NCBI GenBank assembly: GCA_022447065.1 | Contig: JAKUUM010000008.1 | Span: forward strand, 1 to 64,000 | DNA: 64,000 nucleotides | Direction: 5' to 3' | Origin: SAR86 cluster bacterium | Lineage (GTDB): Bacteria; Pseudomonadota; Gammaproteobacteria; Magnimaribacterales; Magnimaribacteraceae | In this document: positions 20,838 to 26,140 of the stretch, piece by piece | How the letters are laid out: each line of letters opens with the position of its first letter | How positions within the stretch are numbered: position 1 is the first letter of the stretch | Made by a program: the position numbers and the translations under genes | The notes under the pieces: generated by a model | Told to the model about the DNA's origin: nothing | Seen by the model: the letters and a program-made list of their open reading frames with translations, nothing else | The model's database searches: none

Positions 20838-21389
20838 ATGAAATATTGCAGTAGTTGTGGCAGTAAAGTAGAACTCAAAGTTCCGCAAGACGATCACTTT
20901 CCTAGATACTGTTGCACTAATTGTGATGCAATCCATTACCAAAACCCCAATATCGTAACGGGAACTATTCCTATTATGAAAGACAGAATTTTGTTATGTA
21001 AAAGAGCAATTCATCCTAGGCCTGGAATGTGGACTCTTCCAGCAGGTTTTTTAGAGAATGGAGAAACTATTGGACAAGGTGCTTTTAGAGAAACCCTAGA
21101 AGAAACAAATACTGAGGTAAAAATGGGTAATCTTTATGCGATCTTTAATATTCCTCAGATAAGCCAGGTTTACATGCTCTTTTTTGCTGAAGTACTTAGA
21201 GAAGATTTTGGAGAAACTCCAGAAAGCCTTGAAGTTAAGCTTTTTAAAGAGGAGGAAATCCCATGGCAAGAACTTGCTTTTCCTTTTGTTCCTATTGTTT
21301 TGAAAAATTATTTTGCAGACAGGAAAGACAATAAATTTGACTTAAAAGTAGAGACCATTGAAAGGCCTGTGAAAAAAACTAATCAATAA
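20838..21389 (+). CDS. Nudix hydrolase with N-terminal zinc ribbon (NADH pyrophosphatase-like)
   Basis: 183 aa. Residues 1-35 form a zinc ribbon with paired cysteines (YCSSCG and CCTNCD), then HYQNPN, as in the C-terminal half of NudC. The Nudix box is PAGFLENGETIGQGAFRETL followed by EET, intact except Asn at the last glycine. The large N-terminal domain of NudC is absent, so it belongs to the short ribbon-Nudix group whose substrates (NADH, ADP-ribose) are not fixed. Its stop overlaps the end of convergent purL by 11 bp. Confidence 0.9.
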   Translation: MKYCSSCGSKVELKVPQDDHFPRYCCTNCDAIHYQNPNIVTGTIPIMKDRILLCKRAIHPRPGMWTLPAGFLENGETIGQGAFRETLEETNTEVKMGNLYAIFNIPQISQVYMLFFAEVLREDFGETPESLEVKLFKEEEIPWQELAFPFVPIVLKNYFADRKDNKFDLKVETIERPVKKTNQ

Positions 21390-24300
21390 ATTCTCTGGCA
21401 TTTGAAAAGAACTTTATCCAGGGACTGTACAAGCCCCAGTCATTTGGTTTCCAAGAGTTTTGAATGGACAAAAAAGACCTCTCAGGATGCGGCATCATTA
21501 AAGTTATCGTGCCGGATAAATTAGTTACACCTGCTACTCCAAACATAGACCCACTTGGATTTTGAGGGTAACTTTCGGTAGGTCTGCCTTCATCATCGGC
21601 ATAAGTAATAGGTATCAATCCTTTCTTCAATAATGTGTCTGTTTCATCTCTGGATAAGCTAATTTGGCCCTCGCTGTGAGCAACGGCAATTGGCAAAATT
21701 GAGTCATTCATATCTTTAAAAAATATTGAAGGGGAACTTCTTATTAAGAGCTGAGTAAATCTAGCTTCAAATTTTTCAGATTTATTCCTTGTAAACTTTG
21801 GCCACAAAGAAGATTCGGAAATTAAATCAGATAAAAGTGCCAACATCTGACAACCATTACACACGCCTAAACTAAAAACGTCATCCCTAGAAAAAAATTC
21901 TTGGAAATCTTTTCTAAGTGCTTCATTGTAAAGGATGCTTGTTGCCCAACCTTCACCTGCTCCTAAAACATCACCGTAAGAAAACCCTCCGCAAGCTACC
22001 AAGCCCCTAAATTCTTTTAAATTCTTTTTCCCTGAGATTAAATCTGTCATATGAACATCCACACAGGAAAATCCTACTCTATCAAAAGCAGCTGCCATCT
22101 CAACTTGACCATTTACTCCTTGTTCTCTGAGTATTGCTATAGAGGGCCTGTTCTTCAGGTTCTCTACCTTTTTGGGTATGACAAAGGAAACTGTTGGATT
22201 GATGCCTTTTCTTTTTCCATTTATGTCAAACAAATACTCTTGTTTTGCAGTTTCTGGATTATCCCTTAATGTTTGCAACTTATAACTAACTAAATTCCAC
22301 TCTTTTAACAGCTCTTCTAAACTCCATTCATTAGCCAACTTTTGGTCTCGCCATAGCTTTATTTTTTTAGAATCATTTGGGGAACCAATTCTATGCACAT
22401 GCTTAGTAAGACCTACTCCAACAATCGAATCTATAACTTCCCTCTCACATTCAGAAGGTACTTGAATAATAATTCCTAACTCTTCGTTGAAAAGAGTTTT
22501 AAGAATTTCATTATCTGAATTACAAATCTGATCCATTTCGATATCTAATCCACTCCTACCTGCAAAGGCCATCTCAATAAGAGTGCAAATCAAACCTCCA
22601 TCAGAGCGGTCGTGATAAGAAAGAATTTTTTCTTGTTTCATTAAACGATGAAGAACCCTAACCAATCCTGGCATTTCATCTACACATTCGACATCAGGAA
22701 CAGGTCCAACTAGTTGGGACGTAATTTGAGAAACAATGCTTCCACCCATCCTTTGATTCCCTTTACCTAAATCAATAAAAATGAGTTCAGTTGATTTGTG
22801 GGATTTCAAATCAATCTGTGGAGTTAATGCCATACTGGCATCTCTTAGAGGTGAAAAGGCTGAGACTATTAAAGACAAGGGAGAAATCACTGATTGTTCC
22901 TTTCCTGACTTATCTTTCCAACTAGTAGCCATAGATAAGGAATCTTTACCTACAGGTATGCAAATTCCCCACTTAGGACAAAGGTCCATTCCTACTGCTT
23001 CTACAGCTTGGTATAGATCTTGATTTCCATTGAGCTTATCCGGTGCACCCATCCAATTGGCTGAGAGCTTTACATCAGATAAGTTTTCTATTCCGGATGA
23101 GATAATGTTTGTTACTGCTTCTCCTACTGCCATTCTAGAAGCAGCCGCAGAATTAATTACTGCACAAGGTGTTCTCTCGCCTATTGACATGGCTTCACCT
23201 GTTGTTGAAAAAAAACTAGAAAGCGTGACTGCATTATCTGCTACCGGTACTTGCCAGGGACCCACCATTTGATCCCTGGAAATAAGACCGGTGACTGTTC
23301 TATCCCCTATTGTGATTAAAAAGCTTTTACTTGCTACTGTAGGATGCCTTAAAACCTTTTTTAACAAGGAGTGAATTTCTAATCCTTTAAGTTTTAATTC
23401 TAATTTTTCCCTTTTTTCTTTCTTAAAAGATCTGACTGTTTTGGGTGTCTTGCCGAAAAGAATGTCTAAAGAAATATTTATTGGATAATTATCGAACAAA
23501 GAATCATATACTTTCAGGTCTGAGCCTTCAGAAATTTCACCTAATACTGCAACAGGACATCGTTCTCTAGAACAAATTTCCAAAAAATCTTCCAAGCTAA
23601 TACTTTCTATTGCTAAAACATATCTTTCTTGAGATTCATTGCACCAAATTTCCATAGGAGACATACCAGGTTCAGCATTTGGAATGTTTCTAAGTTCAAC
23701 AAAACCCCCGTGACCGCTATCTTTAATTAGCTCTGGAATAGCATTCGATAAACCTCCTGCGCCTACATCATGAATGAAGAGGATGGGATTATATTTATCC
23801 TTCTGCCAACAACGGTCTAGGACCTCTTGACACCTTCTTTCCATTTCAGCGTTGCCTCTCTGAACCGAAGCAAAATCTAAATCCTGTTCTGCTTCTCCAG
23901 ACAATAAGGAAGATGCAGATCCACCACCCAATCCTATCAACATGGCTGGTCCTCCTAAGACGACCAGTTTAGAACCTACAGGAACATGAGATTTTTCTAC
24001 ATGGGAACCTTTAATATTACCCAGACCCCCAGCTAGCATGATGGGCTTGTGATAACCATAAAGCCTCTCATTCACTGACATCTCAAACGATCTAAAATAC
24101 CCTAAAACATTGGGTCGTCCGAATTCATTATTGAATGCAGCAGCGCCTATAGGCGCCTCAAGCATAATCTGAAGTGGTGAGCATATACGATCAGGTTTAT
24201 TTTCTGTCCCTTCCCAATCCTCTTGTGAACCAGGAATTCTTAAATTCGAAACACTAAATCCACACAATCCAGCCTTAGGTTTAGCGCCTCTTCCAGTTGC

Positions 24301-25290
24301 ACCTTCGTCCCTAATTTCACCTCCTGAGCCTGTTGAAGCTCCAGGAAAAGGAGAAATTGCGGTGGGGTGGTTGTGGGTCTCTACTTTGGTTACTAAATGT
24401 ATTTCTTCTTCTTTAGTTGTATAAATAGAATCAGTATCAGGGTAAAACCTTTTTGCTTTGTGCCCTTTCAAAACAGCAGCATTATCTTTATAGGCAGACA
24501 ACACCCCTTCGGAATTAGTTTCATAAGTATTCTGAATCATATCGAACAAACTTTTTGGGGTTTTCTTGCCATCTATTTCCCAGCTGGCATTAAAGATTTT
24601 ATGCCTGCAGTGTTCAGAATTAACTTGTGCAAACATCATTAATTCCGCATCAGTTGGATTGGAATTGTTCTGAGTATAACTTTTATATAAGTAATCTATT
24701 TCATCTTCACTTAGAGCAAGTCCTAATGAAATATTAGCCTCAACAAGAGATTCTTGTCCCTCCTTTAAAACTGGAATTTCTAAGACTGGTTTAGCTTCAA
24801 GTTGCTTAAATAAATCCTCAGCACTGGATAGCTTGCTAATGACGCTCTGAGTCATTCGATCAAAGATTTTATGACCTATGTCATGCAAAGTTGTTTGATC
24901 TAATTTAAGTGAAGTATCAACAGAAAAACACAAACCTTTTTCTATTCTGTTTAAAAAATCTATACCAGCGTTAACAAGAATCTCTGTTGCCTTAGATGAC
25001 CAGGGAGATATAGTCCCAAATCTGGGAATTAAAATAAATTGATTGCACTTTAATTCTTTTTTAATAATTTTAGCTTTAAGAATCTTGCAAAGATCTTTTT
25101 CCATTCTTTTATAAAAAGCGGCTGACTCTGTTGTCAAAGAACAAAGATAAAGTTCGTCACATGCGACAGAATTAATTGCCGGAAAATCAGTTTTAATTAC
25201 CTCAAGCAGAGCTTTAAGACGAAACTCAGAAAACCCTTGTTGCCCTTTAAAAGCAATAAATGAGAAAGACTCTTCTTTTGCTGAAACCAT
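21379..25290 (-). CDS. purL: Phosphoribosylformylglycinamidine synthase (single chain)
   Basis: 1303 aa, the large one-chain form of gammaproteobacteria (E. coli about 1295). Converts FGAR, glutamine and ATP to FGAM in purine synthesis. Order: N-terminal PurS-like domain, linker, two FGAM synthase halves (VETHNHPTAI near residue 300, GGLSNAIPEL, SYHDRSDGG), and a C-terminal glutaminase domain with nucleophile Cys in GVCNGCQML and His/Glu in PHPERSF. ATG at 25290 follows a TATAAT box by 17 bp. Divergent from the MltF-like gene as in E. coli and Pseudomonas, with two NrdR-like boxes between them. Confidence 0.98.
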   Translation of the reverse strand: MVSAKEESFSFIAFKGQQGFSEFRLKALLEVIKTDFPAINSVACDELYLCSLTTESAAFYKRMEKDLCKILKAKIIKKELKCNQFILIPRFGTISPWSSKATEILVNAGIDFLNRIEKGLCFSVDTSLKLDQTTLHDIGHKIFDRMTQSVISKLSSAEDLFKQLEAKPVLEIPVLKEGQESLVEANISLGLALSEDEIDYLYKSYTQNNSNPTDAELMMFAQVNSEHCRHKIFNASWEIDGKKTPKSLFDMIQNTYETNSEGVLSAYKDNAAVLKGHKAKRFYPDTDSIYTTKEEEIHLVTKVETHNHPTAISPFPGASTGSGGEIRDEGATGRGAKPKAGLCGFSVSNLRIPGSQEDWEGTENKPDRICSPLQIMLEAPIGAAAFNNEFGRPNVLGYFRSFEMSVNERLYGYHKPIMLAGGLGNIKGSHVEKSHVPVGSKLVVLGGPAMLIGLGGGSASSLLSGEAEQDLDFASVQRGNAEMERRCQEVLDRCWQKDKYNPILFIHDVGAGGLSNAIPELIKDSGHGGFVELRNIPNAEPGMSPMEIWCNESQERYVLAIESISLEDFLEICSRERCPVAVLGEISEGSDLKVYDSLFDNYPINISLDILFGKTPKTVRSFKKEKREKLELKLKGLEIHSLLKKVLRHPTVASKSFLITIGDRTVTGLISRDQMVGPWQVPVADNAVTLSSFFSTTGEAMSIGERTPCAVINSAAASRMAVGEAVTNIISSGIENLSDVKLSANWMGAPDKLNGNQDLYQAVEAVGMDLCPKWGICIPVGKDSLSMATSWKDKSGKEQSVISPLSLIVSAFSPLRDASMALTPQIDLKSHKSTELIFIDLGKGNQRMGGSIVSQITSQLVGPVPDVECVDEMPGLVRVLHRLMKQEKILSYHDRSDGGLICTLIEMAFAGRSGLDIEMDQICNSDNEILKTLFNEELGIIIQVPSECEREVIDSIVGVGLTKHVHRIGSPNDSKKIKLWRDQKLANEWSLEELLKEWNLVSYKLQTLRDNPETAKQEYLFDINGKRKGINPTVSFVIPKKVENLKNRPSIAILREQGVNGQVEMAAAFDRVGFSCVDVHMTDLISGKKNLKEFRGLVACGGFSYGDVLGAGEGWATSILYNEALRKDFQEFFSRDDVFSLGVCNGCQMLALLSDLISESSLWPKFTRNKSEKFEARFTQLLIRSSPSIFFKDMNDSILPIAVAHSEGQISLSRDETDTLLKKGLIPITYADDEGRPTESYPQNPSGSMFGVAGVTNLSGTITLMMPHPERSFLSIQNSWKPNDWGLYSPWIKFFSNAREFID

Positions 25291-25307: not shown

Positions 25308-25313
25308 ATTATA
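25308..25313 (-). promoter_or_regulatory. Predicted -10 box of purL
   Basis: Reverse-strand TATAAT, 17 bp before the purL ATG. No good -35 hexamer is seen at 16-18 bp. The region where -35 would lie is about 10 bp from the nearer NrdR-like box, so a bound regulator could touch RNA polymerase here. Confidence 0.45.
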
Positions 25314-25336
25314 GTTTAAGCCAATGAATACAAAAA

Positions 25337-25384
25337 CCACTTTATATAGTGTTATTAGTCGTTTAGGAACACAATATATAGTGA
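25337..25384. promoter_or_regulatory. Tandem NrdR-box-like sites in the purL/mltF intergenic region
   Basis: Two copies of a 16-bp palindrome related to the published NrdR consensus (acaCwAtATaTwGtgt): 25337-25352 matches 14 of 16 and 25369-25384 matches 15 of 16, counted by hand. Their starts are 32 bp apart, about three DNA turns, which is the usual spacing of paired NrdR boxes before ribonucleotide reductase genes. Here they stand between purL and the MltF-like gene; no nrd gene is in the window. Confidence 0.65.
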
Positions 25385-25403: not shown

Positions 25404-25409
25404 TATAAT
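25404..25409 (+). promoter_or_regulatory. Predicted -10 box of the MltF-like gene
   Basis: TATAAT, 29 bp before the GTG start at 25439. No convincing -35; at the usual spacing this would fall at the right edge of the second NrdR-like box (GTGATT at 25381-25386). A ribosome site AGGGGAGAG stands about 10 nt before the GTG. Confidence 0.4.
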
Positions 25410-25438: not shown

Positions 25439-26140
25439 GTGAATAAGGTTAGACTGTTTTCCTTTTGTGGTTTATTGCTAGTTGCCCTGTTGGGTCTTGA
25501 CAACTCTGCGGTATCGCTTAACGCTAATAGTACTAGTTATCTGGAAGAGGAGATAGAAATCCTTTGGGGTGAACAAGATCCAGCTGGCCAGGAAATTTTT
25601 CTATCAAGAATGCATCAAAGACTTCCAGAGTTGGAAGAACTCTTCAAAGAAGCAGCTACACAATCAGACCTACATTGGACTCTCTTAGCTGCTATTAGTT
25701 ACCAAGAATCCCATTGGGACCCTAAAGCAATTTCAAAAACTGGTGTAAGAGGACTGATGATGTTGACGCAAACTACTGCAAAAGAAGTTGGAATATCTAA
25801 GAGAACAGATCCTAAACAAAGCGTAATTGGTGGTTCGATTTATTTCCAACGTCTGTTAGAACAGTTCCCAGATTCAATTCCTAGACAAGATAAACTTTGG
25901 ATGACAATGGCTGCTTATAACTTAGGGTTTAGTTACTTAAAAGAAGCTAGAAAAATCACGAGAGCTAACAACAAAAATCCAAACAGTTGGAAAGAAGTTA
26001 GTAATGCTCTCAGTCTTATGGCAAGAAAAGAGCAAGATAAGATAATGATTGAAAGAATTAACGAAGCTTTGGATTATGTTCAAAAAGTACAACTCTATTA
26101 TCGGACTCTTTCAGTAAACAAAAGAATTTTAGTATTCTGA
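25439..26140 (+). CDS. Lytic transglycosylase, MltF catalytic part without the substrate-binding module
   Basis: 233 aa. Cuts peptidoglycan glycan strands in the periplasm. A signal peptide spans about 1-25; the SLT domain begins near 60 with the catalytic glutamate in AAISYQESHWDP (Glu90), followed by GVRGLMMLTQTTA and a C-terminal AAYNLG. The segment just before the SLT domain also resembles MltF. E. coli MltF (about 518 aa) carries a solute-binding-protein module of some 250 residues between signal and SLT domain; here only about 35 residues lie there. Position divergent from purL supports orthology to mltF. GTG start at 25439 has a good ribosome site; no reading frame for the missing module exists upstream. 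Confidence 0.9.
   Translation: MNKVRLFSFCGLLLVALLGLDNSAVSLNANSTSYLEEEIEILWGEQDPAGQEIFLSRMHQRLPELEELFKEAATQSDLHWTLLAAISYQESHWDPKAISKTGVRGLMMLTQTTAKEVGISKRTDPKQSVIGGSIYFQRLLEQFPDSIPRQDKLWMTMAAYNLGFSYLKEARKITRANNKNPNSWKEVSNALSLMARKEQDKIMIERINEALDYVQKVQLYYRTLSVNKRILVF

Follow-up and report, generated by a model that had tools for sequence, protein, structure and literature searches.

The closest described systems are the NrdR operators of ribonucleotide reductase (RNR) operons, such as nrdHIEF and nrdDG of E. coli and nrdRJ of S. coelicolor, in which two 16-bp palindromic boxes separated by a spacer of 15-16 bp lie beside the promoter. NrdR boxes were reportedly described by Rodionov and Gelfand in 2005. 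The gene at the centre of this study, purL, is controlled in E. coli by PurR, a member of the LacI family whose effectors are hypoxanthine and guanine. DNA binding by NrdR requires that the protein carry dATP together with either ATP or ADP (PMC12176259), and the spacers bound by the protein measure 14-17 bp, with an optimum of 15-17 bp for binding and repression (PMC12051234). NrdR has been described as RNR-specific; one non-RNR target that has been tested is topA of P. aeruginosa, which carries a single box and is activated (PMC4409342). We found no publication linking NrdR to the control of purL, although an older prediction is possible (Rodionov and Gelfand 2005), and none treating both SAR86 and NrdR.

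Paired boxes between purL and a divergent transglycosylase gene

The window, by which we mean the entire 64-kb stretch of SAR86 DNA that was analysed, contains two NrdR-like boxes between divergent genes. Box scores are given as matches out of 16 to the consensus ACACWATATATWGTGT (ACACwATATaTwGTGT), and pair scores as matches out of 32. The relevant features are:

21379..25290, minus strand: purL, phosphoribosylformylglycinamidine synthase, 1303 aa, above the TIGR01735/NF003672 cut-off; most likely target
25308..25313, minus strand: putative -10-like element of purL, TATAAT; relatives have a -10-like block at the same position (TACAAT/TATAAT)
25331..25336, minus strand: putative -35 position of purL, a weak TTTTTG (TTTACT in genera g3/g6), directly abutting the proximal box
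25337..25352, no strand assigned: NrdR-like box proximal to purL, CCACTTTATATAGTGT, 14/16, conserved in relatives
25353..25368, no strand assigned: 16-bp spacer between the boxes, kept in length but not in sequence in relatives
25369..25384, no strand assigned: NrdR-like box distal to purL, ACACAATATATAGTGA, 15/16, conserved in relatives
25404..25409, plus strand: TATAAT, possible -10 element of the transglycosylase gene, conserved in g1, with TATAA also in g5
25439..26140, plus strand: MltF-like lytic transglycosylase (SLT domain), 233 aa; uncertain second target

The first-pass annotation had reported boxes of 14/16 and 15/16, 32 bp apart, at 25337-25384 between purL and an MltF-like gene. 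Coordinates and scores were re-read from the sequence and agree, and the flanking genes are as it had named them, with PurL scoring above its profile cut-off and the SLT protein matching the C-terminal part of MltF. Against the MltF profile NF008112, the latter protein reached 226 bits, below the cut-off of 354 bits, and only the C-terminal part was matched; the product of 25439-26140 aligns with only the lytic-transglycosylase portion of MltF, and nothing in it matches the N-terminal portion of the profile.

The box starts are 32 bp apart and separated by a 16-bp spacer, which places the centres about three helical turns from each other, the spacing of an NrdR operator. No other site in the window scores 13/16 or higher. 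When the 64-kb window was simulated 200 times with an order-1 Markov model, sites of at least 14/16 occurred at a mean of 0.025 per simulated window, and the best simulated pair at 32-bp distance reached 23/32, compared to 29/32 for the purL pair. A pair-pattern search of the whole 1.55-Mb genome allowing up to three mismatches matched only the purL pair and a pair upstream of nrdA, and the reversed-pattern control of the same search gave 0 matches. Beyond purL and nrdA, neither this search nor a pair-model search of the genome revealed such a pair, be it at another pur gene or elsewhere. A regulon prediction from single sites was dropped because single boxes with two mismatches were not above the reversed control genome-wide. 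There is no riboswitch or other RNA at purL, and the window contains two tRNAs only.

NrdR, the nrdAB operator and conservation at purL

The same genome encodes NrdR in a single gene, whose product scores 166.7 bits with TIGR00244 (cut-off 124.65) and combines a zinc ribbon with an ATP-cone (PF22811 and PF03477). The protein retains the zinc cysteines C3, C6, C31, and C34. Among the DNA contacts named for the structure of S. coelicolor NrdR bound to DNA (D15, R17, R26-R29, R37, and R12; PMC9110341), D15, R17, R26-R29, and R37 are likewise retained, and position 12 is K rather than R. In the order, nrdR was found in all of the 26 near-complete genomes searched. The nrd promoter of this genome carries the same kind of paired box at the same 32-bp spacing:

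C23:85735 and C23:85767: box pair with 32-bp spacing directly before nrdAB

Approximately 43 bp separate the end of this pair from the nrdA ATG; nrdA encodes the large subunit of a class I reductase with an ATP-cone and is followed by nrdB. The nrdA pair is present in every genome of family f1 in which the region upstream of nrdA was read (26/26), with the boxes 31-32 bp apart. The purL locus thus resembles the operators of RNR operons in the architecture of its boxes, and the genome has both nrdR and an operator of the same kind at nrdAB. It differs from them in its target, a gene of de novo purine synthesis, and in that the boxes abut the -35 position from upstream.

To assess conservation, 30 purL loci of family f1 were read. 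The pair is kept in register upstream of purL in genera g1, g3, g5, g6, and g7, with about 41-50 bp between the end of the boxes and the likely purL ATG. With genus g4 and genome G026 set aside, 19 of the remaining 26 loci have a pair score of at least 24/32; in seven loci of g6, the pair has drifted to 19-23/32, scores that the best chance pair in 64 kb can also reach, and the control of these loci may have weakened or disappeared. In an alignment of 16 dereplicated rows, the boxes carry a mean information of 1.12 and 1.10 bits per column, and the corresponding values are 0.94 bits for the purL promoter side, 0.61 bits for the spacer, and 0.63 bits for the mltF side. Beyond the proximal box, on the purL side, a -35/-10-like block stands at constant distance, reading TTTACTTA ... 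TTATTACAAT in g3/g6 and containing TATAAT in g1. This block is conserved by alignment; a simple consensus scan yielded nothing above shuffled sequences and did not report the purL -35 element. On the transglycosylase side of the alignment, a TATAA is conserved in two genera only, g1 and g5, and, judging from sequence and alignment, the -35 position belonging to the TATAAT of the window would overlap the distal box.

Boxes are absent before purL in the three genomes of g4, where both purL and the divergent transglycosylase gene are kept, which indicates that the regulation is dispensable. A PurL tree recovers a g3/g4/g6 group in which g3 and g4 are sisters (89-91% bootstrap), and the family root is not settled by this tree. 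With g4 placed next to g3, the simplest reading is that g4 has probably lost the boxes. The g6 locus of G026 (L022) lacks the transglycosylase gene between uvrB and purL; here, the distal box is gone and a decayed proximal box remains. In f2-f4, three other families of the order, no boxes were found before purL at 20 loci; at several of these, an upstream gene of the same direction ends almost at the purL start. Likewise, none of 80 purL loci from named gammaproteobacteria (Pseudomonas, Marinobacter, Vibrio, and others) has a pair of at least 22/32.

Predicted repression of purL and alternative readings

We consider it likely that the boxes form a genuine NrdR operator and that NrdR, loaded with dATP and ATP (or ADP), represses purL in step with nrdAB. 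We infer binding, the sign of regulation, and the effector logic, the last being taken from NrdR of E. coli and S. coelicolor. When dATP and ATP (or ADP) are plentiful, an NrdR tetramer would bind both boxes, three helical turns apart, and cover the stretch that borders the purL -35 position on its upstream side. Since the pair touches this position, bound NrdR should hinder RNA polymerase, and high deoxyadenylate would shut down nrdAB and purL together. Once deoxyadenylate falls, NrdR would leave the DNA, and both RNR and the de novo synthesis of purines would rise.

A LacI-family helix-turn-helix was not found in this genome, which suggests that PurR is missing, and occurs above the cut-off in only 4 of 35 genomes of the family. 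Repression of purL by NrdR would make sense in a genome of this kind. The expected outcome, nucleotide-responsive repression of purL, is that of PurR control in E. coli, whereas the protein family and the operator differ. Compared to topA of P. aeruginosa, the purL site shares the feature of a non-RNR target, but it has a full pair of boxes and is predicted to be repressed. We regard the paired and conserved NrdR-type operator at purL as a new predicted target of a known regulator and not as a new kind of system.

The first-pass annotation had proposed an enlarged NrdR regulon for either purine supply or wall growth. None of the three findings it had listed as refuting was obtained: the genome has nrdR, its nrdA promoter bears a matching box pair, and relatives keep the pair at purL. 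The purine half of this proposal is favoured because the conserved stretch takes in the boxes and the purL promoter but not the mltF side, and the wall half has little support outside g1. On the sequence data, the identity of the boxes and an enlarged NrdR regulon with purL as the predicted main target are well supported. Control of the transglycosylase gene is possible, mainly in g1, where the operator may also repress this divergent gene.

It is unlikely that the transglycosylase gene is the main target, or that both genes are controlled equally, an arrangement that would tie wall cutting to dNTP status. All four g1 genomes do have a TATAA(T) on the mltF side near the distal box, with a -35 position that would overlap this box, and in G026 the distal box has disappeared along with the transglycosylase gene. 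However, outside g1 (and g5) the mltF side is variable in length and has no conserved promoter-like element, whereas on the purL side both sequence and distance are conserved in every genus with boxes. In addition, the missing distal box of G026 may simply reflect a deletion edge, and g4 has kept the transglycosylase gene without the boxes.

We give even less credence to the idea that NrdR binds the boxes but activates purL, or that the site is non-regulatory. The boxes lie just upstream of the purL -35 position and not across the core promoter, and NrdR of P. aeruginosa activates topA (PMC4409342). Yet this activation came from a single box, and paired boxes at three-turn spacing constitute a repression architecture (PMC12051234, PMC12176259); nrdDG of S. 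pneumoniae has a similar layout, in which box 2 includes the -35 element and the -10 element lies downstream (PMC12051234). Finally, although the genome is AT-rich and the number of single sites, with at most two mismatches allowed, does not exceed that of the reversed control, the pair statistics, the likeness to the nrdA operator, the exact spacing, and the conservation across genera make it very improbable that the palindromes are sites of a different regulator or an AT-rich repeat that arose by chance.

Other box pairs in the family and the meaning of a possible NrdR control at purL

A pair model was built from purL and nrdA pairs taken from the very genomes that were searched; the search with this model is partly circular and found few other pairs, and our conclusions on conservation rest on direct reading and alignment of the loci. 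In genome G016, a separate nrdB has its own NrdR-like pair (L231:2492-2560; 27/32, 32 bp). Five loci of genus g10 in family f4 (L271-L274 and L277) have a strong box of 14-16/16 (ACACTATATATAGTGT in L273) accompanied at a distance of 31 bp by a weak second box, upstream of a gene for a GlcD-like FAD oxidase. In addition, a pair scoring 25-29/32 at 31-32 bp lies directly before the ATG of a metallophosphoesterase gene in all seven family genomes that have this gene:

L233:2663-2715, L234:2616-2666, L235, L236, L238, L232, and L275 (genomes G008, G015, G021, G020, G022, G028, and G024): box pairs of the metallophosphoesterase operon

The metallophosphoesterase belongs to the LpxH-like fold family and is distinct from an LpxH-like gene found elsewhere in these genomes. 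The next gene encodes a GT4 glycosyltransferase and, where the operon was read on, genes for a cytidylyltransferase and PhoB/PhoR-like proteins follow. A similar gene set is found in the PlcP clusters of marine bacteria, which serve lipid remodelling under phosphorus stress (PMC4796936). By its gene order, the operon resembles such a lipid-remodelling operon, and the metallophosphoesterase would correspond to PlcP. The metallophosphoesterase gene had no match in the genome to which the window belongs.

A broader role can be put forward tentatively, and we think it may well not hold: NrdR of this family could act as a general regulator of purine and deoxypurine status that fills the gap left by PurR at purL and, in part of the family, extends its control to a PlcP-type operon for phospholipid-to-glycolipid remodelling. 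If true, one ATP-cone sensor would join DNA precursor supply, purine synthesis, and the saving of membrane phosphorus. For purL itself, a paired NrdR operator whose spacing is kept across several genera would place de novo purine synthesis under the direct influence of dATP/ATP status; in these reduced genomes, which lack PurR, a simple feedback loop is the predicted outcome.
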